Below, in pieces: positions 1-17,439 of a stretch of DNA of 64,000 bases (position 1 is its first letter; each line of letters opens with the position of its first letter). The DNA lies in the NCBI GenBank assembly GCA_907163375.1, contig CAJQUW010005278.1, positions 1 through 64,000 of the forward strand. The letters run 5' to 3'. The position numbers were made by a program, and so were the translations under genes. The DNA is from Prostheceraeus crozeri. Its lineage: Eukaryota; Platyhelminthes; Polycladida; Euryleptidae. The notes beneath the pieces were generated by a model that searched no databases, was not told the DNA's origin, and saw nothing but the letters and a program-made list of their open reading frames with translations.

Positions 1-1
1 A

Positions 2-445
2 CATGCCATATCTCTTTTCAACAGTATTGAGCCCCATCTCAATGTAAATGATAGAGGAGAAATCATTACAGATGAAAATAAAGTGATTGATGCTTCACGT
101 TATGAAGACTTGATTCAGTATGCGACACGTAGAAAGCGCCGTCAGGGCTATGTTCCACCTGGTTGGTCATACTTTCTTAAACTATTGAAAAAGCATAATG
201 TGCCAAAATTTGCTTTGAATAATGAGACATTGAAAGAACTTGATTCAACAGTGGCTACTACTCCAATGCTTCAGACGATGAAAATGCCAACAAATTGGTT
301 TAAGACGTCACCTGCTACATCCCCTCCCACACTCACTAAGCAAACAAGAGGAAGAACTCGACGTAGATCTACATCGCCACTAAAACTGGTAAAAGGAAAA
401 CGTAAAACAGCTCCTCCCAGGAAATACATGTTCTCAGACTATTAA
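2..445 (+). CDS. Small basic protein of a Polinton-like element (5' end outside window)
   Basis: The frame is open from base 2 and ends with TAA at 443-445, so the true start lies left of the window; the first internal candidate start is only a GTG at 83. The visible 147 residues have a central part with a PPGW motif and, at the C-terminus, a run of Lys/Arg/Thr/Ser (RGRTRRRS, KGKRK). I recognise it only loosely as a small conserved protein that often sits beside the integrase in such elements; the basic tail suggests nucleic acid binding (inference). The next start codon, at 447, follows after one base. Confidence 0.6.
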   Translation, partial: HAISLFNSIEPHLNVNDRGEIITDENKVIDASRYEDLIQYATRRKRRQGYVPPGWSYFLKLLKKHNVPKFALNNETLKELDSTVATTPMLQTMKMPTNWFKTSPATSPPTLTKQTRGRTRRRSTSPLKLVKGKRKTAPPRKYMFSDY

Positions 446-446
446 T

Positions 447-662
447 ATGAAGCAGATGTGTTGCTTGCCATGTAATGAGCCGCCAGAGGTGAATGTCGTT
501 GTCACTTGCACTTGCTGCGCCAGCTCTCATAATGAAACCCCTAAGCAATGTGAACACGATCGCAAAACCGCTAAAGCTAAATGCTGCAGTTGTTGTAAAT
601 GTAGAAAGGCAAGAAAACAAAAAGATGAGAAGGAGGAAAAAGAGTCAGTCGTCATCGACTGA
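447..662 (+). CDS. Cysteine-rich small protein
   Basis: The 71-residue ORF starts one base after the preceding stop (TAA t ATG). It has 13 cysteines, many as CC or CxC pairs (MCCLPC, CTCC, CCSCCKC), then a highly charged Lys/Glu tail. Clustered Cys suggests metal binding, but no known finger pattern is matched. It overlaps the start of the integrase in another frame (625-662). It could be a chance ORF, but the Cys clustering and tight junction argue for a gene. Function unknown. Confidence 0.45.
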   Translation: MKQMCCLPCNEPPEVNVVVTCTCCASSHNETPKQCEHDRKTAKAKCCSCCKCRKARKQKDEKEEKESVVID

Positions 663-1712
663 ACGTTTGAAGTCAATCTATTATGATGTAAAACATCCGG
701 CAGGATTTGCATCTATCAAGAAATTATCAAAAGCGAGTGGTCTTCCACAATCACAAGTGAAACGATGGCTAAAGGGTCAGGCTACCTATACACTCCACAA
801 ACAAGCGAAAAGAAGTACCGCACCCGCCATTATATTGTTCATGACATCGATGAACAGTGGCAAGCAGATTTGTGCGATGTTGCCTCCATTTCAAAACATA
901 ACTCGGGCAATAATTTTATTTTAACCGTCATTGATATTTTCTCGCGTTATGCGTGGGCTCAACCTTTAAAAACTAAAGAAGGGAAAGGAGTAGCAAAAGC
1001 ATTCCAAACAATTTTTCGAGAAGGTCGCATTCCAAAAAGAATTCAGAGTGATCAAGGAAAAGAGTTTGAAAATCAGCATGTGACAAGATTATTTGAGAGG
1101 CATGACATTGAGTTGTTTAGTGTAAAGAGCGCTTATAAAGCTGCACTCGTTGAACGTTTTAATCGCACATTAAAAAATCGCTTGTGGCGACATTTTACTG
1201 CCAACTTGACACAAAATTGGACAAAGGTTCTACAAGATACACTCCATGCCTACAATCACTCTATCCATCGTTCTATTGGACTCAGACCAGTAGATGTAAA
1301 TGCTGACAATGTAGATAAAGTGCGCGAATCATTCCAACGTAAACGCACTCATGTGAAAAGTGATGTGAAAATTGGCGATAAAGTTCGTATCTCAAAAGTG
1401 AAAAGTGTTTTTGCTAAAGGGTACCTTCCGAATTGGACAGAGGAGGTATTTACAGTATCAAGGATTGATCAAATAGACTCTCCAACCACCTACAAGTTGA
1501 AAGATTACGATAATGAAGAAATTGAGGGTAGCTTTTACCGCGATGAGATTGAGGTAGTCATTGAAAGTGAAACATATTTGGTAGAGAAAATCATTCGATG
1601 TAAAAAACGGCAAGGTGAAGAATGGTGTCTTGTTAAATGGAGTGGTTATCCTTCAAGTATGAACTCTTGGATGCGTCGTGCCGACATCTTTCATCTAAGT
1701 GATCGACAGTGA
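625..1712 (+). pseudogene. Polinton-type DDE integrase with chromodomain, frame broken near 810
   Basis: This is a retroviral-type (rve) integrase that would insert the element into host DNA. The N-terminal part (625 to about 810: basic start, then YYDVKHPAG and VKRWLKGQ, an HTH-like segment) is in one frame; the catalytic core (765-1712 ORF) is in the -1 frame, so the two halves are not one continuous ORF. In the core, catalytic residues are visible in QADLCDV, QSDQGKEF and ALVERFNR, with 33 residues between the second Asp and the Glu. An SH3-like segment (GDKVRISK) follows, and a C-terminal chromodomain-like segment is marked by YLVEKI and LVKWSGYPS. The break lies in the A-rich run near 805-812. 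No good slippery heptamer is seen, so mutation or a sequence error is more likely than programmed shifting. The core remains intact. Confidence 0.85.
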
Positions 1713-1715
1713 TTC

Positions 1716-1722
1716 ATGCAAA
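1716..1722 (+). promoter_or_regulatory. ATGCAAA motif upstream of the core-like gene
   Basis: One of four ATGCAAA sequences found in the short spacers of this element (also 5228, 6654, and 4877 on the minus strand). It resembles the octamer site of POU factors (ATGCAAAT). A regulatory role is inferred only from its repeated position. Confidence 0.3.
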
Positions 1723-1753
1723 GTTGTAACTAACAATGTTTAGGGTTTGAGCT

Positions 1754-2209
1754 ATGAATCCAACTGCCTCATTTTATTCACGACCCTCCTATGTAAGTGG
1801 TGGAGGACAAATTTACATCGGTGCTCGCCGCCAACGTGGAGGTAGCATACTTGGTGCACTGAAATCTGTTGTAGCACCTCTCATATCCAATGTCGGTAGA
1901 TCTTTAAAACGAAATGTTTTAAGTAATGCCGTTGGCTTTGCTGGTGATGTTGCTAGTGATCTTTCCAGAGGTAGAAGTTTTAAGAGCAGTTTGTTGAATC
2001 GTGGAAAGGAACGCGGTTTAAAAACATTGAAGCAGACCTTTGCTGGTGTTACTCAAGGAAAGAAATCACCTAAACGAATGAAAAAAGGAAGGAGGAAACA
2101 TCGCGGAGCTGGTAAGGTGCGATCTTCAGTCAAAAGGCATTCACGCAAACGTCGCAGAGGCTCTAATCATTCATCAGGCGCTAAACGACGACGCTGCTAT
2201 AACTTCTAA
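1754..2209 (+). CDS. Basic core-like / membrane-active virion protein
   Basis: A 151-residue protein with two parts. The first half has a Gly-rich start (YVSGGGQ, RGGSILGALK) and an amphipathic stretch at roughly residues 33-75 (SVVAPLIS, NAVGFAGDVASD). The last third is extremely basic (KKGRRKHRG, SRKRRRG, KRRRCYNF). Adenovirus-type core and cement proteins show this mix, and the second element has a similar gene at 37309 before its capsid gene. DNA condensation and capsid-interior location are inferred. It ends two bases before the capsid-like gene. Confidence 0.6.
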   Translation: MNPTASFYSRPSYVSGGGQIYIGARRQRGGSILGALKSVVAPLISNVGRSLKRNVLSNAVGFAGDVASDLSRGRSFKSSLLNRGKERGLKTLKQTFAGVTQGKKSPKRMKKGRRKHRGAGKVRSSVKRHSRKRRRGSNHSSGAKRRRCYNF

Positions 2210-2211
2210 TC

Positions 2212-3489
2212 ATGGAGTGTAAAACTTCCGGTTTTTGTTTATTCGATCAACAAGCCATACAGACAGATATTCTTAGTTCAAGTATTGTAGATTATCATCC
2301 TCGAACAGCTGAGAATGCTGGCCCCATTGAATTTGTTATTCCTGGTGGTAGTGATGACTACATAGATTTGAGTTATGCGATGCTTGATTTGAGGTTTAGA
2401 ATTCAGCAAGCAGATGGAACTGCTATTGACGATACACATAAAGTTGGACTGAACAATTTACCATTGACTACATTACTTCGTGATGTTTCTCTAACGATTG
2501 GAGAGCAGCAGGTGGAAGGTGGTCAAAGCGATTATCCCTATAAATCATATTTCAATCATGTATCACAGTTTCATCCAGCAGCACAAAAAAGTCATATGGA
2601 AGCCATGGGATGGTACAGAGATGAAGCAGGAAAATTTGATGTTGAAACAAACAGTGGCTTTGTAAAGCGATCTGCTATGATTAAAGATAGTAGAGTATGT
2701 CAGCTATATGGTCCGCTGAATTTAGACTTCTTTAGACAGTCAAAGTTTTTACTGTGTAATACCAGCATGCGACTCAAGCTGACATTGAATAAGCCTGAAT
2801 TTGCGCTAAATGCATTTGCTAAAGTTGACAATTTTAGAATTCATGTGGAAGATATTGCACTTTACATTTGTCGAGTAGTACCGAATCCAAGTGTCATTAG
2901 TGGGCATGCTGAAGGCCTTAACCGCCAAAATGCCATTTACCCCGTTCAGCATACAAAGCTTCTCACCTTTACAATTCCGAAAGATCAAAAGAGTTTCATG
3001 AAAGATGGCCTCTTTCCATCGGAAGCACCGAAGCTCCTCATGGTGGCAATGGTTGAAAATGATGCATTTAATGGTAATATAAAGAAGAATCCTTTCAATT
3101 TTAAACACAATCAGTTAAGTGAAATTGCTTTACGTGTAAATGGTGTGAGTCATCCTGGTCCACCCTACAAACCAGATTTTGCTTCGGATCAATTTATGCG
3201 CAGTTATGTTGATTTTATGGATGTTTTTGGCTTTTACAATACGGATGACACCAACGGACTGACTATGAAAGAGTTTAAGAGTGGATATACTATTTATGCA
3301 TTTGATTTGACTGCTGACAGCGATATTAGTGCACCCTATCGTCAAGCGAACGTGCCTCATAATATTCGTTTGGATTTGACGTTCAAAAGAACACTACCTG
3401 AGACGATCAATGTATTAATTTATGCAGTCTTCGATTCAAATATTGAAATTACAAAGTATCGTGACGTGATTCTTCAGTATAATCGTTAA
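2212..3489 (+). CDS. Major capsid (hexon-like) protein candidate
   Basis: A 425-residue soluble, beta-rich protein without signal peptide or TM segments. Its position between a core-like gene and the adenain-type protease is where such elements carry the double jelly-roll capsid protein. N-terminal landmarks are DDYIDLSYAMLDLRFRI, then VGLNNLPLTTLLRDVS and DYPYKSYF, a pattern I know from a family widespread in invertebrate genomes near F54H12-type integrases. It is shorter than classical Polinton capsid proteins (about 600 residues), so the fold assignment is inference. The start lies 2 nt after the upstream stop; its own stop overlaps the next start (TAATG). The frame is intact. Confidence 0.7.
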   Translation: MECKTSGFCLFDQQAIQTDILSSSIVDYHPRTAENAGPIEFVIPGGSDDYIDLSYAMLDLRFRIQQADGTAIDDTHKVGLNNLPLTTLLRDVSLTIGEQQVEGGQSDYPYKSYFNHVSQFHPAAQKSHMEAMGWYRDEAGKFDVETNSGFVKRSAMIKDSRVCQLYGPLNLDFFRQSKFLLCNTSMRLKLTLNKPEFALNAFAKVDNFRIHVEDIALYICRVVPNPSVISGHAEGLNRQNAIYPVQHTKLLTFTIPKDQKSFMKDGLFPSEAPKLLMVAMVENDAFNGNIKKNPFNFKHNQLSEIALRVNGVSHPGPPYKPDFASDQFMRSYVDFMDVFGFYNTDDTNGLTMKEFKSGYTIYAFDLTADSDISAPYRQANVPHNIRLDLTFKRTLPETINVLIYAVFDSNIEITKYRDVILQYNR

Positions 3490-3950
3490 TGAGTTGGCTG
3501 ACTGCTGACGATATTAAGACTAAAGTGCAGCGTAATGCAGACGAAGCGACGTTGAAAGCTTTCGATAATGTCTATTCACTCGATACCTTACCACCTGCAG
3601 TAAATCACTATCCCATCTTTATTGTGCTAAACACTCATTCACAGAATTTAGGCGGTGAGCATTGGAAAGCGATCTTTATTGGAGAAGACCGACGTGGTGA
3701 ACTATTTGACTCTCTTGCTCAACCTCCAAATATACCAACACAGCAGTGGTTGAGAAAACATACGCGTCAATATCAGCGAAATGAACGCATACTACAACAT
3801 CCACTTTCATCAACGTGTGGTGCTTTTGTACTGTACTTCATCTTAAGACGTTTACATGTATCTCGATTTGCATCTGTTATTCAAAACTTTTCATGTAATC
3901 CATCCTCTAATGAAAAAATGATTTGTAAGTTCTATCATGATTTGAAATAA
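3489..3950 (+). CDS. Adenain-like cysteine protease (virion maturation)
   Basis: A 153-residue C5/adenain-type protease expected to trim capsid and core proteins during assembly. Catalytic residues can be placed: His58 (GGEHWKA), Asp74 (ELFDSL), Gln103 (ILQHP) and Cys110 (STCGAF). The 7-residue Gln-Cys spacing matches adenain, and Asp replaces the usual Glu as in many relatives. The start codon overlaps the capsid gene stop by one base (TAATG), suggesting translation by termination-reinitiation from a shared mRNA. The stop codon is embedded in AAATAAAAAC, which may serve as the polyadenylation signal. Intact. Confidence 0.88.
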   Translation: MSWLTADDIKTKVQRNADEATLKAFDNVYSLDTLPPAVNHYPIFIVLNTHSQNLGGEHWKAIFIGEDRRGELFDSLAQPPNIPTQQWLRKHTRQYQRNERILQHPLSSTCGAFVLYFILRRLHVSRFASVIQNFSCNPSSNEKMICKFYHDLK

Positions 3951-3984
3951 AAACATCATGTTGGAAAAATTGTTTTTTATTTTA
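3946..3984. terminator. Shared convergent 3' end / polyadenylation region
   Basis: Only 31 bp separate the protease stop (3950) from the stop of the reverse-strand gene (3982). The stretch has AATAAA on the plus strand at its start and AATAAA on the minus strand (TTTATT near 3973), so both transcripts could be cleaved here. Confidence 0.5.
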
Positions 3985-4842
3985 CAATCGCTGGGTACGT
4001 ACATACTCAATGAGATAGTCTAGGATCATATTTGCTTGTACATGAGATTTTAGTCCAGTAATGATCACTTTACTATTATGAAAGATTGCCACATGCACAG
4101 GTAACCAACAACTAATGAGAGCTGCAGGAAAAAGTTCGGGTTCATAACACAAACTGTAACTGCTGGTACGAATCTTCAAAAATGATAGACTGTCACTCAA
4201 TTGAGTAGATATCACCATATTGTCCACAGTCAGATTCGACATCACACACCTCTCCCTCTTCCATATCCGACGTAGTAGTCTTTGTAGCTCTAAGCGCATT
4301 GACTGCGCCGATGAATGAGAAAGGGCGCGAGAATCTGTACAGTCCCATTTGGGAAGAGTTGAAGATTCCGTGAATTGTTCATCTTCACCACTAACATTTG
4401 AGGACGACCCGGGTAATACTTGCTGTTTGGAAGCTGTTGGTGTAATGTTGTGAGATCGATTTTGGTGTAGAGTCTGAAGCGACGGAGAATGTTGACGATG
4501 GTGTAGCGATGGCGCTTCATGATGAAAGAATGAGTAAATTGAGCGATGTACCTTCCTTTTATACTTTTCCCAACTACCTTGATGAAATGTGAAGTTAGTA
4601 TGAAGTTGGGAATGATAGAGTTGAATTCGCCGATTGTTGACGCGCAACCAGATGCGATTTCCAATACGTGAATGTCTTTTCATATAGAAGTATTTTAAAT
4701 CCTTCATGATATGATGTAGAGATTGAAAATGGCGATAAGATAAAGCAAACTCTCTTCTCACATTTCCAGTTGAATCTTTGAAATAGACGTTTCGATCATG
4801 ATCCGTTTCAATACGTTGTAGGGAATCTAATTTCCAACTCAT
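3982..4842 (-). CDS. Two-part DNA-binding protein candidate: PC4-like N-terminus and TBP-like C-terminal repeat
   Basis: 286 residues. Residues 201-286 read like one repeat of the TATA-binding protein: YEPELFP at 233-239, then VAIFHNSKVIITG at 251-263 and LKS. Both positions that in TBP hold DNA-kinking phenylalanines are Phe (F238 and F254). TBP normally has two such repeats; here only one is present, so a dimer or partner would be needed. Residues 1-106 match the neighbouring 4865-5221 gene and have beta-hairpin then helix pieces (NVYFKDS, FALSYRHFQSL) that recall the PC4 ssDNA-binding fold, a weaker idea. A Ser/His/Gln-rich linker of about 90 residues joins them. A role in transcribing the element is inferred. 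Confidence 0.7.
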   Translation of the reverse strand: MSWKLDSLQRIETDHDRNVYFKDSTGNVRREFALSYRHFQSLHHIMKDLKYFYMKRHSRIGNRIWLRVNNRRIQLYHSQLHTNFTFHQGSWEKYKRKVHRSIYSFFHHEAPSLHHRQHSPSLQTLHQNRSHNITPTASKQQVLPGSSSNVSGEDEQFTESSTLPKWDCTDSRALSHSSAQSMRLELQRLLRRIWKRERCVMSNLTVDNMVISTQLSDSLSFLKIRTSSYSLCYEPELFPAALISCWLPVHVAIFHNSKVIITGLKSHVQANMILDYLIEYVRTQRL

Positions 4843-4864
4843 GGTGCGTGATAGTCATGTCTGA

Positions 4865-5221
4865 TTAAGATTTGCATAGTAGGGCGATGAACTCACGACG
4901 AATAAATGTCATGATGGAGCGATGTATGTATCTTCTATACTTCTCCCAATTGTATTTGCGAAATGAGAAACAGTTTGCGGAATGAGAATGGTAGATTTGA
5001 ATTTCATTTCTGTAATGTTGAAGCCAAACTTGATCACCCAGGGAGATGAATCTTAATGTTTCAAAATATTCCAAATCCCTCATGATATCATTGAGGTTGA
5101 CAAATTGTCGCCATGTTAATGTAATTCCTCTTGATGTATGACCATGAGAATTTTTGAAATGTACGTTTCCATCACGATCAACTCTGATATATTGTAGAGA
5201 GTCCAAAATCCAAGTCTTCAT
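4865..5221 (-). CDS. Paralogue of the N-terminal domain of the TBP-like gene
   Basis: 118 residues from the ATG at 5221 (an alternative start is 5233; the inner one aligns with the neighbour). It matches residues 1-106 of the downstream gene along its length: LDSLQ, GNVHFKNS, ITLTWRQF, IMRDLEYF, SWEKY/NWEKY and HRSI. The pattern, a short beta-strand run then a Trp/Tyr-containing helix, seems to occur twice within the protein, which fits a tandem PC4-like or Whirly-like fold (inference). It lacks the TBP-like part. 22 bp lie between its stop and the next start. A local gene duplication is the simplest origin. Confidence 0.6.
   Translation of the reverse strand: MKTWILDSLQYIRVDRDGNVHFKNSHGHTSRGITLTWRQFVNLNDIMRDLEYFETLRFISLGDQVWLQHYRNEIQIYHSHSANCFSFRKYNWEKYRRYIHRSIMTFIRREFIALLCKS
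4871..4877 (-). promoter_or_regulatory. ATGCAAA(T) motif upstream of the TBP-like gene
   Basis: Read on the minus strand this is ATGCAAAT, an exact octamer site, 35 bases before the start at 4842. See 1716 for its relatives. Confidence 0.3.
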
Positions 5222-5256
5222 GATGTTATGCAAAGTTGCAGATTAGCAATATAAAA
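5222..5256. promoter_or_regulatory. 35-bp divergent promoter between two start codons
   Basis: The reverse-strand start (5221) and forward start (5257) are separated by only 35 bp, containing ATGCAAAGTTG (5228-5238), which recurs at 1716-1726, and an AATATAAAAATG start context. Regulation of both genes must use this stretch or lie within coding sequence. Confidence 0.45.
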
Positions 5257-6654
5257 ATGTCGTTTTATCATATTTTGCTTAGCAATGCGGCTACAAAGAG
5301 ATTTACTAGTAATCGAGCCGCACTCTTTTCTACTCCCATTGATCATGCACAACAGCTAAATGGAAATTGGGAAGTGGGTGTCACTCAACTTGTTTATAGC
5401 AACTGTGTCTATACTTTTGATCATGAGGTGATGACTATTAATATGAGACGTACAGCTGCTTACCAATGTGAAAAGGGCTGCCGAGTATACATTCCACAGT
5501 GGCCAAAGAAAGATCTCTTATCATGTAAAAAGTTTATATATGATTTCTTGAATAAAGCGTGTAAACATATTGCCCAATTTACTCCACACAATGATGATTA
5601 TACTTATATACATCATGTAGTTGAGAAAGATTGGATTGTTGGTTTAAGTCCAAGTTTAAGAAATGATTTAGGCTACCTCGCTAGCGCCTTAACAAGCTAT
5701 GATAATTTTAACGTTAATTACCACATAAGTGGTCATAAACAGTTAATATATCGAGAGGAAGCTTATTATGTAGATCTTATTCCAAGAAATGAGAAGACGT
5801 TGGTAAAGAAGATTGTGATTAAGCCAAGAAAGACAAACATGACTCCTGAAACATTATTGAAGAAATTTAATTATCTCCTTCGAGTTGATGGTAAACAAGT
5901 GGCAACATTGACTTATATTAAATCATCTAATCATATTGCAATAAGTAAATTAAATGATGATGATCTAGTATTAATTTGTTCAAAAGATTTTCATCAGTTC
6001 TTGCGACATCATTCTGCAGCTGTTCATGGAAAATTTAATATGCAACATTTACCATGTGAAAGGTCAAATCAATTTGATACAGAATGGACCGTATCTTTAT
6101 ACAGAAAGTGTGTAGAGCCTTTCGGTGGTATCTTACATGATACAAGAGTGCTGATGCCTCGCATCATTACTTCAGTTAAATTGGTTGTAGATTATTTAAA
6201 TGAAGTGATTAATGACCAACATATTTCATTTTCTGAAAAAGAAGGTACTTTGTCTCTCACTATAAGTGGAAAAGGTATTGAACTAATTATGGATAAAACT
6301 CTAATGGACATTTTGGGTTTTGACCAAAATATCTTTAAAAGTGGTACTGTAACCAAAGCTAGCGCAGACATGTCGCTATCGCGTCGTATTAACTATTTTC
6401 AGATATATTCCAATATTGGTGAAGATGTACGTGTGGGAGATGTTGAAGCTCCATTGCTAGCAATGATACCATACCAGCCAAAGAGCTGCAGTATTTTATC
6501 TGAGCATACTTTCAAGAAAGTGCATTATACAAAGCTGAAATCAAACTACATCCCACAAATTGATATTGCCATTTATGACGATGCTGGTGCGTTGATTCCT
6601 TTTCATAAAGATGCTGTGACAAGTATCACACTCCATTTCCGAATGAAGAGTTAA
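5257..6654 (+). CDS. Large virion protein candidate, paralogue A (minor capsid/penton-like)
   Basis: 465 residues from the ATG at 5257; the longer ORF starts at a non-ATG codon. N-terminal LNGNWEVGVTQLVYSN is the family hallmark, shared with the next gene (LEGEWEVGVSSICYDS) and with the broken gene at 26811 in the other element. A conserved C-terminal end has ILGFDQ, then PKSCSILSEH, and a last beta segment ending HFRMKS. Mid-protein WTVSLYRK matches WWVDIYGD of the neighbour. No TM segments. It lies among capsid genes and probably is a virion vertex or fibre-associated protein (inference). Intact. Confidence 0.6.
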   Translation: MSFYHILLSNAATKRFTSNRAALFSTPIDHAQQLNGNWEVGVTQLVYSNCVYTFDHEVMTINMRRTAAYQCEKGCRVYIPQWPKKDLLSCKKFIYDFLNKACKHIAQFTPHNDDYTYIHHVVEKDWIVGLSPSLRNDLGYLASALTSYDNFNVNYHISGHKQLIYREEAYYVDLIPRNEKTLVKKIVIKPRKTNMTPETLLKKFNYLLRVDGKQVATLTYIKSSNHIAISKLNDDDLVLICSKDFHQFLRHHSAAVHGKFNMQHLPCERSNQFDTEWTVSLYRKCVEPFGGILHDTRVLMPRIITSVKLVVDYLNEVINDQHISFSEKEGTLSLTISGKGIELIMDKTLMDILGFDQNIFKSGTVTKASADMSLSRRINYFQIYSNIGEDVRVGDVEAPLLAMIPYQPKSCSILSEHTFKKVHYTKLKSNYIPQIDIAIYDDAGALIPFHKDAVTSITLHFRMKS

Positions 6655-6660
6655 TGCAAA
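6654..6660 (+). promoter_or_regulatory. ATGCAAA motif between the two paralogues
   Basis: Overlaps the stop codon of the preceding gene and lies about 35 bases before the likely start of the next at 6694. Fourth member of the spacer motif set. Confidence 0.25.
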
Positions 6661-6693
6661 CGTATGCTAATATATTTTTCCAATGTGAATAAT

Positions 6694-8214
6694 ATGGAAA
6701 GTGAAAATAAGGACTCGTTTCTAATCTACTTGCCCAGTAATGCTTCTATGAATAAATTTCCCAAAAATAAACCATCAGACTATCGAGTAGAATTAAATCG
6801 CCCACTGCATTTAGAAGGTGAATGGGAGGTTGGCGTTTCTAGTATTTGCTATGATAGCAATATTCAGAATGTGAATGATTTGGAAGAAATGATATTGACT
6901 CCTCGCACCCATGATGGAATAACGATGAATAATGCATTTCAGTTCCCATACAATTTAACATCAGATGGAAAGTGGAACTATGAATGGATTCAGATAAAAT
7001 CAGATTCTTATGAGCCATTTGGGAATGAGAAAATTATTAAGGCATTCAACAGTGGTAATACTTCCATCATGAAGAATAAAAATCAGAAAGCTTATGAGTT
7101 TACTATCTATCATTGGAGTGGGAGACAGTTCCTCCGCTTTCATTCTTTTACTAAAGGTCTTACGCTGAGGTTGGATAGTGAATTCTATCCGCATCTCGGT
7201 TTTGGTCATGGACTACATCTAACGTCAATTGCTACTGCAAATGTTAGAAAAGTTTATTCAAATCGAATCAACAAATTTCATTATAGATTTAAAATATTTG
7301 ATGAAGATGTTGTAGAATGCGAAGAACGCATCATTTTGAAAAAGCGTGGTGTTCAACCTTTATCACTTATTGAGTTAGTAAAACGATGGAATGAGACTGT
7401 GGATAAGAAGTATGGAGAGAAAATTATGGCGGACAAAAATAAGTTGGTTATTCAGAAATATAATGACAAACTTACAGTTTATTTCTCTCCAACCTTGCGT
7501 CATTTTGTAAGACATTATACACCTATTATTGGAAGCGGTGTGGTGTATGCTTCTCATGAATATCACACTAAAGCTGATTCAGTTAATGATGAATGGTGGG
7601 TGGACATCTATGGCGATCGCATCAAGAAAATTTACCAGTCTTATGAAGAATCTAAAGTTGCTATCAATATAATGCCGCGTCTATATCATACAGTTGAAAG
7701 CTTCATTCATGTAGTAAATCCTTATATACAACAGAATTTGAAGCATGTGATGAAAAGTAAATATGATGTAAAGACACACCACATTTCGTTTTCAATTGAA
7801 AATCAACGCGTTGTTCTGAGACTGGGTGATGACATTCAATGTCAATTGAGTAAAAATTTGAAAAAACTCTTTGGATTTTCAATGCTACAAACTGTGTTTG
7901 CTGCTGCGCATACGATTGGTATAGAAACACCAATGACACTTGATAAACATGAACAGCACCTTTACATTCAAAGTGATTTGATTCTACCTATTTCTGTTGG
8001 TGAGAAAAAAGAATACATTTTACGTGATTTCATTCATGATAAAGACGCTTCATATGGAATAGTCGAGAAGATGTTTGAATCTATTTTCTATCATCCCGTC
8101 GTCAAACAAACTATACCCTCTATTGCTATCAAAATTACCAATGGTTTACAAGAGTGCATCCATGTGAAAGATACTAAATCCCTCATAACGTTAGTGTTTC
8201 GGAAAACAAAGTGA
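6694..8214 (+). CDS. Large virion protein candidate, paralogue B (minor capsid/penton-like)
   Basis: 506 residues from the ATG at 6694; an upstream in-frame ATG at 6664 would add 10 residues, but the family alignment starts at MESENKDSFLIYLPSN. It follows its paralogue in tandem with about 40 bp between. Shared landmarks are LPSNASMNKF, LEGEWEVGVSSICYDS, DEWWVDIYGD, KLFGF and a final ITLVFRKTK. Divergence is high, so the duplication is old. Two copies imply distinct structural roles, for example a hetero-oligomeric vertex (inference). Intact, no TM segments. Confidence 0.6.
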   Translation: MESENKDSFLIYLPSNASMNKFPKNKPSDYRVELNRPLHLEGEWEVGVSSICYDSNIQNVNDLEEMILTPRTHDGITMNNAFQFPYNLTSDGKWNYEWIQIKSDSYEPFGNEKIIKAFNSGNTSIMKNKNQKAYEFTIYHWSGRQFLRFHSFTKGLTLRLDSEFYPHLGFGHGLHLTSIATANVRKVYSNRINKFHYRFKIFDEDVVECEERIILKKRGVQPLSLIELVKRWNETVDKKYGEKIMADKNKLVIQKYNDKLTVYFSPTLRHFVRHYTPIIGSGVVYASHEYHTKADSVNDEWWVDIYGDRIKKIYQSYEESKVAINIMPRLYHTVESFIHVVNPYIQQNLKHVMKSKYDVKTHHISFSIENQRVVLRLGDDIQCQLSKNLKKLFGFSMLQTVFAAAHTIGIETPMTLDKHEQHLYIQSDLILPISVGEKKEYILRDFIHDKDASYGIVEKMFESIFYHPVVKQTIPSIAIKITNGLQECIHVKDTKSLITLVFRKTK

Positions 8215-8519
8215 AGTCTTTATACAACATTTATTGAAATATGTACATGAATGTGAAGGAATAGACTTTATACAACATCCACTGAAAATATATACATGAG
8301 CGCACTTCAATAAACATTGTTATATACAAAAAGTCTTTTTACTTCGTGAAGGGTGGAAATATACAGGGATAGGAAAAATGTCTTTCAGTGGAAAAGTCAT
8401 CACATGGGGAATGTACAGATGTGGACACATATTCACAAGGAAAAAACAATCTCATGCGATACATAAAACAACAATGTTTATCTACAGAAATCAACATCAA
8501 AATACTAAGTTAAGGATGA
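8215..8519. other. Convergent intergenic spacer, no gene
   Basis: Between two convergent genes. It holds AATAAA at 8309-8314 (plus), TTTATT at 8230 (minus-strand signal) and an imperfect direct repeat around ATAGACTTTATACAACAT (near 8218 and 8262). Confidence 0.5.
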
Positions 8520-11500
8520 TTATGCTAAGACGTCTCCTGAATGTGGTAGTGTGAGTTTAATTCTTTTGGGTGGTGGTATGTTTGTGTCAGGATGTCCATG
8601 TGGAAGAGATATGTTGTGTTCTAGCCAGCACCTCTTATCCTCCCATGCTGAAAGCGCCCGTTTCCTAAAAGTATGAGTTTTGATCTCATGCGACTTAGAT
8701 TTTAAGATTGTCATATTGACAAACGTTATATTTTTATTTCTATAGGCTTTCCTGAAATTCTTATGTTTCATGTTAGAGACCAATGATCTTGATATGCCTT
8801 TAGCGCGCTTAATGCTATCATCACTATCCTTTAATTTCATAGAATACATTTTAGGGCGGAGGAGAATCATTTCAGCTATCTCCTTCCCTGCTGTCTCATC
8901 CTTAAAGCAGCCAAGTTTTGCCTTATTTTTGATGGAGTATAGTGGATGATTAGCAGGATAATTTGATGTATCAAAATATCTTTCTAAAGATTTTCCTACT
9001 TCATTAAAATTTAAATCTTTTTGAGTGGTAATACCTAAAAAGAAACTATCTGTGTCACCACCCAACAAACGAACCTCTTTTACGAGAGGACACGGTTTTA
9101 GTATTTTATAGAAGAGTTGATACATTTCAAGCTTGGAGTAATCTAGAACAGCTTGACCAATATAGATGGGTTTGCACAACTCAACTTCAGATTTCATCAT
9201 TTTAATACCTACAAGATCCTCATCGATTATGTCTCTATCGATGAATAGAGGTGATGAGGTCAATTTGTGATACTTTTGATCATCATTAACTAGTTTGTAG
9301 TTTACGCGCTTTCTAACATCCTCCATCGTCTTACCAAATAGACTGTTGTTCTTATATTTATAAAAATCTTTTTCAAAATTATTTTGGGCTAGTGCACGTT
9401 TCTGACTGTTACTATCTATGTAGGGTTTGAGGAAGGCTTTCTGTCTAAATTTAATAATGCGGTGAACTCTTTTTAAAATCATGCCCATTTCTAAATAAAA
9501 TTTTAAGATGCTAAAGTGGACTAGATAGTTTTCCTTATCATATTGAGTGAGTAAAAGTTTGCGGCAAGGCTTATACTTGGGTTGTCCACATGATTCTAAA
9601 TCTTTATGAAATTGTTTCATAAAGTCGGAAAACATATCTTTACTCACTTCACCTGATTCGGGTGCGAGTGGAAAATCTACGGTTTTATGTTTAATATTAT
9701 TTGGATAGATTAGATCTATCTCAAAATAATATCCCCAATCACCTTCATCTGGAATTGCTAGTATGTTGGAAGGGTTGGAGAAATGTTGAATTTCACTATC
9801 ATCTAACCAGCTAAACTCAGAGTGAGGTAGCGGTTTGGATAATGAACTACCATACAAATTATTTTGGTCATAATACTTCAGATGAGTCTGGTCATTGCCT
9901 ACTATTTTTGATTTTAACCTATGTTTATTTACAAATGTGAGACCACCGCGAATTCCTCGCTCAAATAAATTATACATCTCTGGATCTTGTAAGAGATGAA
10001 TGGTCTCACCAGTCATTTTAAAAGCAGACTTAAATGACATGGCTGGCAGACTGACAAAGTGGACGGGATCTAACTTATCTTCTTCTAATGCCACTCGTCG
10101 AAACTCCTGAAATACATCAGCCAGCAAAAATACATCTAACTTAAGGTAGGCAATCATATATTCACCAAATGTATGGCAGTCAAATTTTATCCATGCATCT
10201 TGTGCATGATCATAATCTTCGGTCTTACATTCTGCGCCGGTCAAATCATTTTTAAATTTATCTATGGGCGGAAGAGAAGTCTCGCCGAGTTTACTAATTG
10301 CATCAAAATATGCATATGGAAAGACTCCTTTCCGTGTGATGACTTCATCGGTTAGATTTGGATATTGTTTCTTAAGATTTTGTGTTAGTGGAAGAGACTT
10401 TAGATTTTGCACGAGAGAGGCCAGTGATGCAGTCATAAATTGGTAGGAATCTAAAAATTTTATATCAAAATAGACCGTCTTATTTTCTTTAGTTTTATCG
10501 ACAGGCACTTTTGCTGTCATGGCCATAAACTTCTCTCTCGTTTGTGCTATTACATCAAGCTTCCACTCTTTCATTTGACCTAAACCTCCTTTTATTATCA
10601 TATGGCTGTCGTAGCCCTTGAAATTATGGAAAATGACGGGTAATGTACGCCGCTTCATCCTCAGCGAAAAATTACATTTTGAACAGAGTGCGTTTCTAAA
10701 TTTACCAGTGATGTGGTCATGGTCGCGCACTTTCTTAATCTTATCATCGTCAAATGTTTTCCTACATTTGGGGCAAACGTTGCAACTATCAAATTTTGCT
10801 TGATCATCTGCTGTCATATGCAATGATCTGCGATAGAGTTCACCATCATACTTTTGTTGAAATTTTACAGCCTGTTCGAGGAATTGTAGGAATTGGTAAA
10901 TACAATCCTCACCTTGCCAGACGTGCATTTTATTTTTTCTATTTTGGAAATGGTCATGCCATACTTCATAGCAGGAAATGGCTGCTGGTCGATGGATGTT
11001 ATCATCGATATAACATTCGATGTCAGCATAGATGACACGAAGAGGACTTAGTTCATCGCCATTCTCTCTATATGAAAACTCCTTATCTTTGGGCATGCGT
11101 TCCATTTGCAGTTTACCTCGCTTACACCACTCATAATGAGTTTCAAATTTGTTTTTACTCCTAAAGTTCCGAATGCATCTGTCACAGTAATAAATCTCTG
11201 ATGAGGTAGAATTTCTTAAGTGGTGGTATAAGCGAGAGATTTTGGGAATGCCGCAGTAGTGCCATTCCTCACTATCATCCTGTCTTACTAATAAAAGGTT
11301 GACAACATGGTCATAACAACTCGAACGCGAGTTGTAGCGCACACCCTTCAATCCCTTTTCCCAAACATGGAGAACTATTTTAATGTTGTTCAATTTTTCA
11401 AATTTTTCTATATCTTTAATTTTCATATCGTCACTATTACAGTCATCGAAGTTTAATTCATTCTCCCACTGCCTATAGCTATATGTACGATTTCGATTCG

Positions 11501-12494
11501 CATTGATGTCATTATAGTGGAGAATGGAGAGGACAGCATATTTAAAACATTGCGATTCGCAATCGACATTGATGACTGCTGTTTTGTTTTTTATATTTTT
11601 TGGAAGTTTAAAGGAGCCTCGACCACTATGATTTCCTAATAAACTGATTTTAAATAAGGCGGACTCAATGCCGTCAAAAATGAGACCGCTATCGCGCTCG
11701 TTAAATTTATCAATATTTAATTTTAATCCTTGGATGTGAAAATTTATCCAAGACTCATAGTCTACAACCTCGGTTGCAGGAGAGGAGGGTATGTGAAACT
11801 CTAACCTCTCTATTATTTGTCCAGTATGGTGGTCGATTTTTACATATTTTATTTTAAGATAGATGAGCGCCTTCATCCTAAAATTGTCTAAATTGTTGAA
11901 GAGCGCTTCTATCAATGATGAATTTTGATGAAACCATTCCTCAAAGTTAGTAATGGTTTCTGAGGAGTCCATCTGGTAGTTCCTCACTAAATTATTTATG
12001 GACACCTCAGTGAGTCGGATAGAGGAGGTACCGTTGGTGTAGGTATCGTTCGTGTGTGTATGTTGAAGTCTGTGCGAAGATAGTTCAAAACGTGTCTCGA
12101 AAGACTGAATGCATAAATCGCAAGAAAAGGAGACATCGTTAACAGAATCATCCCTACCTTCGGAGATTGATGCCGGCTTAGGTCGACAAACACCTCGCTT
12201 GATGTGTCGGGTGAGATCCCATTTCCTCGTGAAGATGTGCCCACAGTCAGCACATTCCCACTCGTTGCCATATCGCGACAGTTCTGAGCTGGAACTCGCA
12301 TCACCTGAAAGAGAAATCATTCTATCATCTCTGTTCAAGCCTCAGTGTAGTGTTACAACCTACCTTGACTCAATAACTCTAAACTTTCCTCGAGAAGAGA
12401 GGGCGTTGGTGATGAAGTTGATGCCTGAAATTGAGGAAGATGCTATTAGTTACACGTTTGAGGGAGATGAGAGAGGAAATCTTTAACTTACCAT
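8520..12494 (-). CDS. polB: Protein-primed family B DNA polymerase, three exons
   Basis: The replicative polymerase of the element. The main exon runs 12304-8520; upstream are exon 2 (12424-12364) and a start exon holding just ATG (12494-12492). Introns are 12491-12425 (67 nt, GTAAGT..TTTCAG) and 12363-12305 (59 nt, GTAGGT..TTTCAG), and reading phase is kept (1282 codons). Numbering the unspliced ORF: two C2H2 fingers (29-51, 73-93), a conserved CFKYAVLSILH domain (264-274), a third finger (385-405), ExoI DIE (439), an HNH/EndoVII-like Cys-HDH insert (522-556), ExoII NFKGYDSH (572), ExoIII YLKLD (731), motif A YDQNNLYG (823), motif B KNNSLFG (996), motif C GDTDS (1094) and KGISRS (1180). All catalytic motifs are intact. 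The unspliced frame also has an ATG at 12338. Confidence 0.92.
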
Positions 12495-12598
12495 TTTAAT
12501 GAAATATGATCAGACAGAATAATAGTCAAAGAGAGAGATCGTGCGTTCGTCACTTGTATGATTCACAGATTAAATGAAATGACATGAATGTCACTTTG

Positions 12599-12606
12599 CT
12601 TATATA
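12599..12606 (-). promoter_or_regulatory. TATA box of the polymerase gene
   Basis: TATATAAG on the minus strand, about 105 bases before the ATG exon at 12494. The 12495-12719 spacer also has to serve the divergent gene at 12720. Confidence 0.5.
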
Positions 12607-12719
12607 CTTTCATTCTCTTCATTCATTGGATGTTCATTCTGATTGGCTGCTTGTGTATACTTTAGAATTAGAAAAATGTTAAAGTTATCATTATTCAAAG
12701 TCAGCATTTCAAAGACAAC

Positions 12720-13157
12720 ATGACAAGTCCTCCAACAACACCAAATACCGCATTGGAGTTCTCCTCTCCATGCACATCAGCAAAGGTGCTCGTTACACCA
12801 AATGCACCAAGAAAGGCGAAGGTGGAGAAGACATACAATCTGGACAATATACGAAAGTTATCATTATCGGAGGATGATGAAGAGGAGTTGCCCGACCTAA
12901 CAGGCATACGGTGGAAATATTTACAATATGATGCCGAAGGGGTGATGGAGATGACCAGCAAGTCGCACTTGCATCAAATATGGGAGTGGCACACCCCTAA
13001 CTCCCAACCGCGAACCGAGGCGGAGTGGGCGTACATTGAGAAAGTGAGGGACGCTGCAGAAGAACGTTTAAAGCAGCTCAACTGTTTTTGTGATCTATGT
13101 GAAGTCAGACTCTGGGACGATATTGACGATGAAGACCTTTTAAAATACATGCCATAA
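12720..13157 (+). CDS. Unrecognised accessory protein, 145 aa
   Basis: The Thr/Pro/Ser-rich N-terminus is followed by an acidic patch (SEDDEEELPDL), a Trp-rich middle (GIRWKYLQYD, IWEWH) and a helical segment ending in a Cys pair (CFCDLC) and acidic tail. Divergently arranged with the polymerase gene. The stop codon is followed at once by AATAAATG, a good polyadenylation signal. No family recognised; acidic patches and Trp-rich segments would fit a regulator or virion accessory, which is a guess. Intact. Confidence 0.65.
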   Translation: MTSPPTTPNTALEFSSPCTSAKVLVTPNAPRKAKVEKTYNLDNIRKLSLSEDDEEELPDLTGIRWKYLQYDAEGVMEMTSKSHLHQIWEWHTPNSQPRTEAEWAYIEKVRDAAEERLKQLNCFCDLCEVRLWDDIDDEDLLKYMP

Positions 13158-13357
13158 TAAATGTTTATTTCGTATTATCTTTGCTTTCATACTGACTTAC
13201 TTGAATGGGGCTTTAGTGAATAATTTAACCATGTATACTTTTTCATTTGGAAATAGTAGCACGCTTAGTTTAACTTGCAAATCTTATAACATTTCATATG
13301 GGTGATAATGGTAGATGAAATAGTGTTAAATAAAATTAAGATAGCTTACATGATTCT

Positions 13358-13885
13358 GGGATAGCAATCGACTGCGATCCATGTGTAAAGAGCTTGTTAG
13401 ACTATGGAAGAGAGAAGTGTGTTATGTTGCGTGTGGCGCGTGAGTGTCCTCCCTTTCATTCCATTCATCAATTCGTCTCATTGATAGAGATAGGTAGAAC
13501 TCATGTCTCTCATAACGTATGCAATGGAAAGTTTTAGGCAACCTTCGACAGTTGGCTAAATGTCGCCCTGGCGCGAATGCATACTACGTTGAGACAGAGG
13601 CAATCACTTGCAAACATGACGCAGAGAGGTTTAACAAGATTGACCATTGCCGAATGTCCCTTGCGGTATACATAGCTACGGGTTTCACCGCCGCCCTTTA
13701 CAGGAACGCCCGTCGAAAGGAAGTATTACACCGAACTTCATTTGCAACGTTCAAGTTGACTGATAGCAGATTCAACTTAATGATAGTATTCGCCAGTCCG
13801 AAGACTGCCCAGGGCAAACCGCGTGGAGGTTCTATCATGTCTTGCCCCATGGTGGCCCTTAAGAGAGCCAATGGTTCGTTCTCGG
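13358..13885. repeat. Repeat module R, copy 1
   Basis: 528 bp nearly identical to 14255-14783 (offset 897), starting GGGATAGCAATCGACTGC. On the minus strand it lies directly downstream of the stop codon of the 13910-14161 gene (24 bp gap), so it acts as, or contains, that gene's 3' region. The plus-strand ORF inside (13519) looks non-coding. Confidence 0.85.
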
Positions 13886-13909
13886 TGTCAATGGTGTCAA
13901 TTAAGTTGA

Positions 13910-14161
13910 CTATTGGCTGGAATAGTCAATGGGTATGACGGTTAGGTTGTCATAGACCCTATACCGCCTAGTTCGTGCTGGTGCATCTGGCACCTTTCGG
14001 ATGCGAGTGGTATTCGGAGTCCACACCTCATCCGTCCAAATGATCCTCTTGATCTTCCCCTTCTTCTCATCCTCATCCCACTCGTCGAGGATGACGAACT
14101 CGGGAATGGCGTTGTCTTCATCGATGAAGACGGGAATGTTGTCGGCAGATGTGGCTTCCAT
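13910..14161 (-). CDS. Small acidic accessory protein, 83 aa
   Basis: Starts at the ATG at 14161, about 40 bases after a TATA box. Composition is acidic in the middle (VILDEWDEDEKKG) with a basic, Arg-rich C-terminal third (ARTRRYRVYD). No family recognised. It is one of three minus-strand genes that each end just before a copy of repeat R, suggesting a cassette-like array. Confidence 0.6.
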   Translation of the reverse strand: MEATSADNIPVFIDEDNAIPEFVILDEWDEDEKKGKIKRIIWTDEVWTPNTTRIRKVPDAPARTRRYRVYDNLTVIPIDYSSQ

Positions 14162-14201
14162 CGTGACTTCAAATTGAATGAGAAGCACTACAATCTTCTG
14201 G

Positions 14202-14209
14202 CTTATATA
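14202..14209 (-). promoter_or_regulatory. TATA box of the 83-aa gene
   Basis: TATATAAG on the minus strand, about 40 bases upstream of the ATG at 14161. Confidence 0.55.
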
Positions 14210-14254
14210 GGGTTTTCAACAATGAATTGCTCAACAGCGAATCAGAATGCTTCA

Positions 14255-14783
14255 GGGATAGCAATCGACTGCGATCCATGTGTAAAGAGCTTGTTAGACT
14301 ACGGAAGAGAGAAGTGTGTTATGTTGCGTGTGGCGCGTGAGTATCCTCCCTTTCATTCCATTCATCAATTCGTCTCATTGATAGAGACAGGTAGAACTCA
14401 TGGCTCTCATAACGTATGCAATGGAAAGTTTTAGGCAACCTTCGACAGTTGGCTAAATGTCGCCCTGGCGCGAATGCATACTACGTTGAGACAGAGGCAA
14501 TCACTTGCAAACATGACGCAGAGAGGTTTAACAAGATTGACCATTGCCGAATGTCCCTTGCGGTATACATAGCTACGGGTTTCACCGCCGCCCTTTACAG
14601 GAACGCCCGTCGAAAGGAAGTATTACACCGAACTTCATTTGCAACGTTCAAGTTGACTGATAGCAGATTCAACTTAATGATAGTATTCGCCAGTCCGAAG
14701 ACTGCCCAGGGCAAACCGCGAGGAGGTTCTATCATGTCTTGCCCCATGGTGGCCCTTAAGAGAGCCGATGGTTCATTCTCGGG
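14255..14783. repeat. Repeat module R, copy 2
   Basis: Second full copy, a few substitutions from copy 1. It ends 12 bp before the stop codon of the 14796-15062 gene. Same orientation as copy 1. Confidence 0.85.
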
Positions 14784-14795
14784 AGTAACGTCATC

Positions 14796-15062
14796 TTACA
14801 CCCTACCAATTCTGCTAAGAGAGTCAAAGACTCTCTCTTTGGTAGCACTGTCGACTTCCACACTAACTGGTACATGGCTAAAAAGTGGAATGTAGCGCCA
14901 TTCCGTTGGATTGACAGCAGTTGCTGTCATCGGATTGCCAATCCGAGCAAGATTATTAAAAACTCTGTCTTGCTCCTCTATTCTAGCAAATTCATTAAAT
15001 AAATTTCGCGGCCTTAACTGCGGTCCGCGAGGAGAGTTGACTGCAGCGTTAGGTGTCTCCAT
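14796..15062 (-). CDS. Small accessory protein with an internal repeat, 88 aa
   Basis: Begins METPNAAVNSPRGPQLRPRN. A short motif is repeated: DRVFNNLARIG near residue 32 and ERVFDSLSRIG at the C-terminus. The TATA box is near 15100 and repeat R copy 2 lies downstream. No family recognised. The duplicated helix-like motif may be an interaction peptide (guess). Confidence 0.6.
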   Translation of the reverse strand: METPNAAVNSPRGPQLRPRNLFNEFARIEEQDRVFNNLARIGNPMTATAVNPTEWRYIPLFSHVPVSVEVDSATKERVFDSLSRIGRV

Positions 15063-15093
15063 GATTGAAATGAAATGAAATGAGAGGTAGTGG

Positions 15094-15101
15094 TTTATAT
15101 A
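15094..15101 (-). promoter_or_regulatory. TATA box of the 88-aa gene
   Basis: TATATAAA on the minus strand, about 32 bases before the ATG at 15062, an ideal spacing for a short-leader mRNA. Confidence 0.55.
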
Positions 15102-15116
15102 CCCCTCTAATGTGAC

Positions 15117-15260
15117 GCAACGTTCAAGTTGACTGATAGCAGATTCAACTTAATGATAGTATTCGCCAGTCCGAAGACTGCCCAGGGCAAACCGCGTGGA
15201 GGTTCTATCATGTCTTGCCCCTAGGTGGCCCTTAAGAGAGCCGATGGTTCATTCTCGGGA
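15117..15260. repeat. Repeat module R, copy 3 (truncated)
   Basis: 144 bp matching only one end of copies 1 and 2 (from GCAACGTTCAAGTTGACTG to TTCATTCTCGGGA). It ends 20 bp from the stop codon of the spliced gene at 15281, so the gene-proximal end of R is the part kept. Confidence 0.8.
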
Positions 15261-15280
15261 TAATTGAAGGACTATGGGAC

Positions 15281-16616
15281 TCAAGCTTGCCGCTTCGCCT
15301 CCGGCTCGTTGACGGAAGCAGGTGGGCGCTTCTCTTTGATATCTGTAAAGAAAGAAGTTGTTAGTTATTATCTTGAACTCTAAGTTACTTGTTTTAAACT
15401 TACAGATCTTCTCAGGACGTGGCTCGAACAGGAATCCTGTGATCGCCTCCTTGTGGTCGAATGTAAAGTGAAGGCATTCGATACCTTTTTTAGCCCTGCT
15501 ATAACACATCTCGTCTCTGCCACGTTCACAGAGGAGCGGTCTTGCGGGCACACGTCCTTTCTTGTCAAGGGGAATGTGGAGGCGACTTGATCGTCGAGTA
15601 CTGCTACTCATCACTTGCTGGTGCAGCTCCTGATTAGTCGCCACCACCTTCCCCAACTGCTTTCGCAGCCCTTCCACCTCCTCCCTCATCTTTCTTAACT
15701 CCTTCTCCTGACTCTCTCTCTCGATGAGGAGCTGCTCTTCTTTAGCCTTACTAGCGAGGTGCGAGAACCTCTCGCGATCGAGCTCTCCTTCTTTCTCAAA
15801 AAGACTAGCTTGAGTCTTCTTGAGCTCCTGAGTGACTCGCGAGAGGTTCTCGGAACTCGCTTTATAGAAGAAACAGTCCCTCTTCCACACCTCCAACTCA
15901 TTCTTCAGCTTGTCATAGTTATCAACCAGTGGTGGGCGCATAATGAAGTTGCGACATTGAGCCGCAATCCCACCACTGCTTGATAACTTAGCCGGCTGCA
16001 CCTCGCTATCGAGGTCAACGTCCCTCACCGCCTCTACCTCGCTATCGAGGTAGACACTCTCGACTAGGTCAACCTTCGTCGAGCCTTTATCCTCCTCCTC
16101 TTCCTCACTGTCGCTGCTACTTGTAGCCGACTCATCGCTAGAGGAGGAGGAGGAGGATTTACTCGACTTCGGAGAAGACTCAATCGGAGTGGGTGAGAGA
16201 GCCTTTGCTGGCACGCTAGAAGATGGAGCCTCTGCTGACGTGATAGACTCGACAGCAGACTGAGTCTCTAGAATCGGGGTGGGCGAGAGAGCCTTTGCTG
16301 GTGCACAAGATGAGGGAGGCTTTGCTGACGTGATAGCCTCGATAGCACACTGAGTCTCCAGAGCTTTCAACTCTGAGCTGAAGAGACTTTGCTTCGCCTC
16401 CTCAGTCAGCTCTGGTTGACTGCAGCTGCTGTGCTTCGCATGCCACTCCGGTAGCGTCTCGACAAGGCGAGATGCATTATGGCTGCTACAAAAGTATCGA
16501 ATGCCCCCTACCATTCGCTTATGTGCACAAGAATGCTTCTTAAAGGCATCGCTACGAAAAATCTTTGAACAGACGCAAAGCTTAAAAGCCGTCTTTGCAT
16601 TGTTGTAGTTAACCAT
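15281..16616 (-). CDS. Spliced coiled-coil accessory protein with Cys/His-rich N-terminus, 424 aa
   Basis: Exon 1 is 16616-15404 and exon 2 15342-15281, joined over a 61-nt intron (15403-15343, GTAAGT..TTTACAG); the two exons sum to 425 codons, whereas the unspliced frame runs into unrelated sequence. Start chosen at MVNYNN, since the longer ORF adds a hydrophobic leader lacking support. Residues 10-65 are rich in Cys/His (LCVCSKIF, KKHSCAHK). A repeated segment follows (ALSPTPI twice), then Ser and acidic runs, a coiled coil over about residues 240-345, and a basic end. No family recognised; it could be a scaffold or chromatin-binding protein (guess). Confidence 0.7.
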
Positions 16617-16688
16617 TTTCTGAAGTGAAAAGGGGAAAACAATGATTATAATTCCGTAAACGTTTGATAGCAAACGATTGATTCCTAG

Positions 16689-16696
16689 TTTATAAA
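16689..16696 (-). promoter_or_regulatory. TATA box of the coiled-coil gene
   Basis: TATAAA on the minus strand, about 75 bases before the start at 16616. Confidence 0.45.
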
Positions 16697-17281
16697 AACG
16701 GAAAAGAATGATTTTACACTTAGTGAGGAATGATAGATTTGAGTGTAGTGAGTGGCACTAGATCCCGTCGACAGCCCGAAGGCCTTGTACTGATCACTAG
16801 GGAAGTGAGAGATCTTCCCCGATACCCGCTCTTTACAGCTGAAGACATCATTGTCACTGCCCCGAAATGGTAACAGGAACGCCGAGTCAAAGGTAGTGAT
16901 CAGTAGCTGGGATCCAACCCCTCAAAGCTGCCTTAGACTTAGTTACATTTCAAATCTGATAGCAGATTTGAACTCAGCATACTTGAAAACCTTAGTCTAC
17001 ATGTTAAAACTTTGAAAAAACTGAAAATTAAGAATTTTTAAAAAATTCCGCATTTTACTACTCATACTACTTTTAAAAAATTTTATCAGTAGTAAAGACA
17101 CTATCAAACTCTATCACACAAACTTTGAAGTAAGAAGATAGCTTGCCTACTTCAAAAGATAGAGTCCTTTGCAACCCGATATCGGGAGCTCAGAGCGACG
17201 ACCGTCGCTTACCTCGTCTTTCGATGAAGTGATCAGACTTGCGTTGTCGGGGGTTTATATATGCTCGGAAGAAAACTTAAA
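16697..17281. other. No gene seen
   Basis: Probable right-hand part of the first element. It contains TGATAGCAGATTTGAACT near 16958, resembling a phrase in module R (TGATAGCAGATTCAACTT), and a TATATA near 17252. The right end of the element could not be placed, because the left TIR is outside the window. Confidence 0.4.
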
Positions 17282-17422: not shown

Positions 17423-17439
17423 CATGCCACAAGTGAAAA

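Follow-up and report, generated by a model that had tools for sequence, protein, structure and literature searches.

A TATA-binding protein gene in Polinton/Maverick elements of the flatworm Prostheceraeus crozeri and its possible role at element promoters

Polintons are regarded as relatives of many eukaryotic DNA viruses. How, within the nucleus, do they activate the genes for their capsid and replication? To our knowledge, this is an open question. Here we analyse a stretch of 64,000 nucleotides from the polyclad flatworm Prostheceraeus crozeri (assembly GCA_907163375.1, contig CAJQUW010005278.1, positions 1 to 64,000; hereafter the window), which carries a Polinton/Maverick element with a gene for a TATA-binding protein (TBP). 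An element-borne TBP would be a concrete answer to the question, namely that the element brings its own promoter selector.

Viral TBPs are already known. In the portion of PMC7221094 available to us, two glutamates in the TBP stirrups are described as contacting TFIIB, viral TBPs often lack these glutamates (conservation is about 40% at one of them), and nearly all viruses with a TBP also encode TFIIB, poxviruses excepted. ORF24 of Kaposi's sarcoma-associated herpesvirus (KSHV), according to the accessible part of PMC12529657, has all four phenylalanines and no TFIIB glutamates, carries a further DNA-binding domain at its C-terminus and belongs to a set of six viral activators. A TBP occurs in 59% of mirusvirus genomes (PMC10132985, from the part at hand). 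No Polinton-borne TBP was found in our literature search, which had little subscription coverage; the TBPs that the available excerpts name belong to giant viruses or mirusvirus-like regions, and neither TATA nor TBP occurs in the main text of four related papers (PMC11071296, PMC11071308, PMC12721341 and PMC10120064). White spot syndrome virus was considered as a precedent and set aside, as the excerpts seen say of its IE1 that it acts with host TBP and nothing more.

Judging from sequence, we put at roughly two in three the probability that the element is a Polinton/Maverick with a complete two-lobe TBP that directs host TFIIB and RNA polymerase II to element promoters.

An interrupted gene in the window and complete genes elsewhere

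A sequence-only reading of the window, made before any database search, had pointed to a 286-residue open reading frame (ORF) with a TBP-like C-terminus, leaving its strand unspecified. The ORF lies on the minus strand; the plus strand, read in the equivalent frame, holds many stops. Its YEPELFP, VAIFHNSKVIITG and LKS are all present, and the two phenylalanines, F238 and F254, stand where they were placed, 16 apart. The features concerned are as follows.

3982-4842, minus: the 286-residue ORF, from the ORF list
4003..4233, minus: second TBP repeat, with YEPELFP and both phenylalanines (ORF residues 204-280; Pfam TBP, PF00352, E=6.7e-7, 29.5 bits; best PDB TBP match, E=1.5e-11)
4329..4505, minus: first TBP repeat, in the frame starting at 4520 (residues 6-64 of the 76 encoded by 4293-4520, searched alone; Pfam TBP, E=9.6e-8, 32.2 bits)
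3982..4520, minus: element TBP gene, frame-disrupted here, about 181 codons in uninterrupted copies (position and length as in the open genes of locus L002 and others; both halves match Pfam TBP)
4196..4842, low end approximate, minus: gene A, upstream of and overlapping the TBP gene, 216 residues in uninterrupted copies (from the relatives P0001-P0003, tblastn of P0002 on the window, and the overlap in L002)

The gathering score of PF00352 is 22.9 bits. The best PDB match of the ORF was the M. jannaschii TBP 2z8u, and among the 36 distinct sequences listed 35 were TBPs or TBP fusions, one of them named only as the ECU04_1440 protein; the single other entry was a sulfotransferase at E=0.9. The TBP match of the ORF is far above chance. 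The absence of a TBP profile match, with a different predicted fold, had been named beforehand as what would count against the sequence-only reading; we find the PF00352 match, and the structure predicted for the element TBP is the TBP saddle.

A protein search returned seven relatives of two kinds. P0001-P0003 (216-222 residues) have their first ~175 residues in common with the ORF, after which they switch frame and run into an acidic tail terminating in YSIE or CSIE; P0004-P0007 (177-202 residues) are TBP proteins with two repeats each. L002, in the same genome, has both genes: an open TBP gene of 181 residues (75.9 bits against Pfam TBP), which overlaps a 216-residue gene A by 329 nt. The start of gene A is the first part of the 286-residue ORF, and its C-terminal tail overlaps TBP in a different frame. 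Because both frames are disrupted within this overlap, near 4.3 kb of the window, the ORF begins as gene A and ends as TBP; it is a chimera, and its single repeat is a by-product of the disrupted frame. In the window copy the TBP gene and gene A are both disrupted and presumably dead. The integrase frame of this copy also seems, by eye, split near its start over two overlapping ORFs (493-1712), a further sign of degradation. All sequences were analysed without any frame repair.

These copies bear directly on the proposal that a single-repeat TBP acts as a dimer or pairs with a host factor. The proposal drew on the one repeat of the window ORF, yet the first repeat is there in another frame, it shares the frame of the second in other copies, and two tandem repeats stand in a single chain in P0004-P0007, in L002 and in the proteins of both other lineages described below. 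We therefore give a single-repeat dimer practically no weight, and for the element TBP family it is refuted. What stands of the sequence-only reading is its core, that a Polinton-type element carries a TBP-like gene; both the profile match and the predicted fold support this.

How common are complete genes? The genome searched comprises 2.05 Gb in 14,165 contigs, the window being the start of contig C4388. A search with P0005 gave 11,747 first-look candidates, of which the best 150 were scored; 147 of these had no internal stop. Of 49 TBP loci fetched from the top of ranked lists, representing 48 copies (L008 = L021), 31 (30 copies) have an open frame with both repeat signatures, although one of these, L047, stops early. 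Uninterrupted copies of the element hold a complete TBP gene. They fall into three lineages, with mostly 64-70% identity to P0005 in lineage I, 42-47% in lineage II where a single match covers the gene, and 40-43% in lineage III; the L037 TBP is more distant, at 36.5%. A Pfam TBP search of the genome returned first the host TBP (L029, 123.7 bits; L031 holds another of its exons), then a TBP-like gene fragment, L030, and below it mainly element copies. L030, at 64.8 bits, is a piece of a host TBP-like gene, perhaps a TBPL1-type paralogue. Three loci (L068, L070 and L069, on C5587, C7595 and C12493) each hold several TBP copies within a few kb, arranged both directly and head to head; these are rearranged or palindromic pieces of the element, whether biological or made by assembly.

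Residues, ancestry and constraint

Nine element proteins (P0004-P0007, L001, L002, L033, L040 and L053) were aligned with host TBP. All nine retain both phenylalanines of the C-terminal lobe. In the N-terminal lobe all nine retain the second, and the first is replaced by proline, within GRP[QH]M, in every one; three of the four minor-groove phenylalanines are thus aligned. The roles assigned to TBP residues at DNA are consistent with the part of PMC12529657 that was available. The asparagine of repeat 2 is present in 9/9, that of repeat 1 in the 8/8 rows that reach its position (the L040 row is short). Both stirrup glutamates are kept throughout, as YEPE in six proteins (the lineage I-type P0004-P0006, L001 and L002, and also P0007) and as YETE in three (L033, L040 and L053).

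Bound to promoter DNA as a saddle, a protein of this kind would bend it by means of three phenylalanine wedges where TBP usually has four, with a proline of the N-terminal lobe in place of the other, and would recruit host TFIIB through the kept glutamate pair. Could the same features serve an attack on the host? Glutamates retained while the DNA saddle changed would suit a TBP that silences or redirects the cell, either by sequestering host TFIIB or by sitting on host TATA boxes. Viral TBPs, however, serve viral promoters in what could be read of PMC7221094 and PMC12529657, although that part of PMC7221094 leaves room for effects on host genes, and we consider an anti-host use improbable.

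Or did a piece or pseudogene of the host TBP land in the element by chance? The host does possess its own TBP gene (L029, L031), but element TBPs are identical to it at only 33-40 of 143-147 residues (23-27%), whereas the host protein has 130 of 150 residues in common with the human TBP core. A 21-row unrooted tree gathers the nine element TBPs into a single group (support 100/100), whose branch measures 2.08 changes per column; P0004-P0006 cluster with lineage I (97/91), and the public-contig protein P0007 clusters with lineages II and III (83/79). The gene also stands beside element genes in three lineages and is under purifying selection in lineage I. A host fragment has a negligible chance of being right; it and chance similarity are ruled out by the Pfam and PDB scores, the low host identity and the single element group.

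The tree, which has no root, joins the element TBPs by a very long branch and does not point to a source of the gene. Nine contigs from a search with a mixed TBP alignment carry TBPs that fall weakly on the M. jannaschii side (90/94, drawn open), away from the element group, and so are uninformative on its origin. Searches of IMG/VR with TBP profile A1, the 425-residue element protein, the polymerase-like ORF and host TBP confirmed no relative.

Constraint was gauged from ratios of nonsynonymous to synonymous differences (pN/pS), counted in open frames only. Outside the overlap with gene A, lineage I TBP (23 loci, 21 distinct sequences) has a pN/pS of 0.29, against 1.2 and 0.92 in the two wrong frames. 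Within the overlap (21 distinct sequences) the ratio is 0.21 in the TBP frame, 1.11 in the gene A frame and 2.02 in the third, which marks TBP as the constrained frame there. By these counts, purifying selection acts on the TBP gene within lineage I. Comparisons across lineages give a pN/pS of 0.46-0.70, pS being 0.59-0.74 and so close to saturation.

A candidate promoter and the element around it

Ahead of the TBP start codon, and inside gene A, lies a TATA-like site.

4556..4563, minus: TATAAAAG, 36-43 nt upstream of the TBP start codon, at the same place in three TBP lineages

This motif occurs once within window positions 1-19000, and in the window copy it is followed at 32 nt by the A of an initiator (Inr)-like TCATT. 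It precedes the TBP gene in 35 of the 43 rows with a repeat-1 anchor (42 copies), by hand count 24/29 in lineage I, 9/11 in lineage II and 2/3 in lineage III; TCA[T/G] with its A 32 nt from the first T is found in 31 of the 43. The site is likely the core promoter of the TBP gene. The TATA-like sites that the sequence-only reading had placed at 12599, 14202 and 15094 exist, as TTATATA. TATAAC sits shortly before the gene of the 425-residue protein, and ATATAAAA directly adjoins the start codon of the 465-residue gene. ATGCAAA lies 29-40 nt before several lineage I element genes on the correct strand (window 1716, 4871, 5228 and 6654); as a shared promoter motif it was rejected, with 23 occurrences in the window against 24.7 expected and none before the gene checked in lineage III.

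The most likely use of the element TBP, as we read the sequences, is promoter selection: it would direct host TFIIB and RNA polymerase II to the promoters of the element itself. Host machinery would transcribe the TBP gene early, starting from the TATA/Inr-like promoter that this gene has within gene A; TFIIB recruited by the product would bring host RNA polymerase II to element promoters, and gene A might assist. Several observations weigh against this. The promoter motif also spells the Y-K-R codons of gene A (TAT AAA AGG), a codon choice with a chance of about 0.055 per lineage in lineages that share ancestry, and TCA[T/G] at a fixed position is not rare. No TATAAA occurs in the 90 nt before the polymerase-like gene or the 425-residue gene. 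One wedge phenylalanine is lost, and the partners of the protein may have changed, given its low identity to host TBP and its long branch. In the four loci of lineage II, pN/pS is 0.65 in the overlap and 0.80 in the free part, indicating no within-lineage constraint. The fullest version of the idea, a transposon in an animal nucleus with a stand-alone general transcription factor, in which a minimal asymmetric TBP recognises element-specific promoters and works with the host's TFIIB and RNA polymerase II, we hold only tentatively.

The genes around TBP are these.

765..1712, plus: rve integrase with chromodomain (Pfam rve 6.8e-11, Chromo 5.6e-7)
2212..3489, plus: 425-residue protein, a capsid candidate by position only, without Pfam match; a similar protein (by eye) adjoins TBP in lineage III
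3489..3950, plus: Ulp1/adenain-like cysteine protease, a weak match (Peptidase_C48 19.4 bits, below the cut-off of 20.7; Peptidase_C5 E=0.048)
4865..5221, minus: 118-residue paralogue of the gene A N-terminal domain (43% identity to P0002)
5257..6654, plus: 465-residue element protein from the ORF list, divergent from the 118-residue gene across a gap of 35 nt; a similar protein (by eye) adjoins TBP in lineage III
6664..8214, plus: 516-residue element protein, from the ORF list
8520..12320, minus: 1266-residue ORF with an Endonuclease VII stretch (Endonuclease_7 5.7e-7) and zinc fingers (zf-C2H2, below cut-off)

Polintons/Mavericks are defined by an rve integrase, a PolB of the protein-primed type, a protease and an ATPase, with terminal inverted repeats of hundreds of base pairs and a 6-bp target duplication. 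The 1266-residue ORF, a candidate family B DNA polymerase by its motifs DTDS and NSLFGK, had no polymerase match in Pfam or PDB. The ends of the window copy, right end included, were looked for and not found. A copy on contig C13380 (232,687-254,967; 22,281 bp) has terminal inverted repeats that match over 622 columns at 88% and start with AGTAGTAAGTAAATC, and it is flanked on both sides by GAGTTA, a 6-bp target site duplication. In its region left of where the window's contig starts, an ORF with a Walker-type motif (by eye) and AAA matches below the cut-off is an ATPase candidate. Its TBP gene is open (L003); the script used for L003 found no open gene A there. With TBP linked to Polinton genes in three lineages and Polinton-type ends in one copy, the element is most likely a Polinton/Maverick. 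Window positions 17470-18890 hold dense direct and inverted repeats, one with 491-nt arms at 99%, which are in part related to the right-hand terminal repeats and their surroundings in the copy on C13380. Between 13350 and 15260 a 300-nt segment occurs twice (98%) and a 144-nt segment three times, with duplicated small ORFs and TTATATA sites nearby.

Gene A has a weak PUR/Whirly/PC4-like fold in its predicted structure and is perhaps a PUR/PC4-like single-strand DNA binder. A profile search of PDB gave no match for it up to E=10, its model had no Foldseek match at E<=0.001, and P0002 had none in PADLOC. As the 118-residue gene is a paralogue of its N-terminal domain, the element holds two such domains in tandem. 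A TBP among replication and capsid-side genes, adjoining a possible single-strand DNA binder, might have been repurposed for origin binding, DNA packaging or integration targeting; such roles would need neither the three wedge phenylalanines nor the TFIIB glutamates, all of which are retained, and we regard them as unlikely.

Comparison with cellular and viral TBPs

The element shares with Polintons/Mavericks and adintoviruses its integrase, protease, ATPase-like and polymerase-like genes, terminal inverted repeats and 6-bp duplication. With the cellular TBPs of eukaryotes and archaea (PF00352), its TBP shares two repeats in one chain, the TBP fold, an asparagine per repeat, three of four wedge phenylalanines and the TFIIB glutamates; it differs in its low identity to the host protein, in the proline of GRP[QH]M, and in being encoded by a transposon in a gene that overlaps another. 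On the fullest version of our interpretation, which is tentative, this would be a second TBP system with very many genomic copies and a TATA/Inr promoter hidden in an overlapping gene. Its variants are numerous enough for studying how TBP lobes change.

TBP is likewise a common gene in mirusviruses, a group of eukaryotic DNA viruses, but, by the accessible part of PMC10132985, their genomes reach more than 400 kb, their capsids have the HK97 fold, and they are not Polintons. KSHV ORF24, a late TBP mimic, is also a TBP fold from an animal virus that works with host RNA polymerase II at the virus's own promoters (PMC12529657, in the portion seen), a role that we propose for the element TBP; ORF24 carries its additional domain, whereas the element protein is a bare TBP of 181 residues. 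A Pfam scan of 20 ORFs from the window and C13380 copies turned up no TFIIB. The TBP-like proteins of double-stranded DNA viruses such as giant viruses and poxviruses are, like this one, two-lobe TBPs from DNA virus-like genomes. They often lack the TFIIB glutamates, to go by the available text of PMC7221094, whereas the element TBPs keep both; this would be a viral-type TBP that, unlike many known, retains the contact with host TFIIB.
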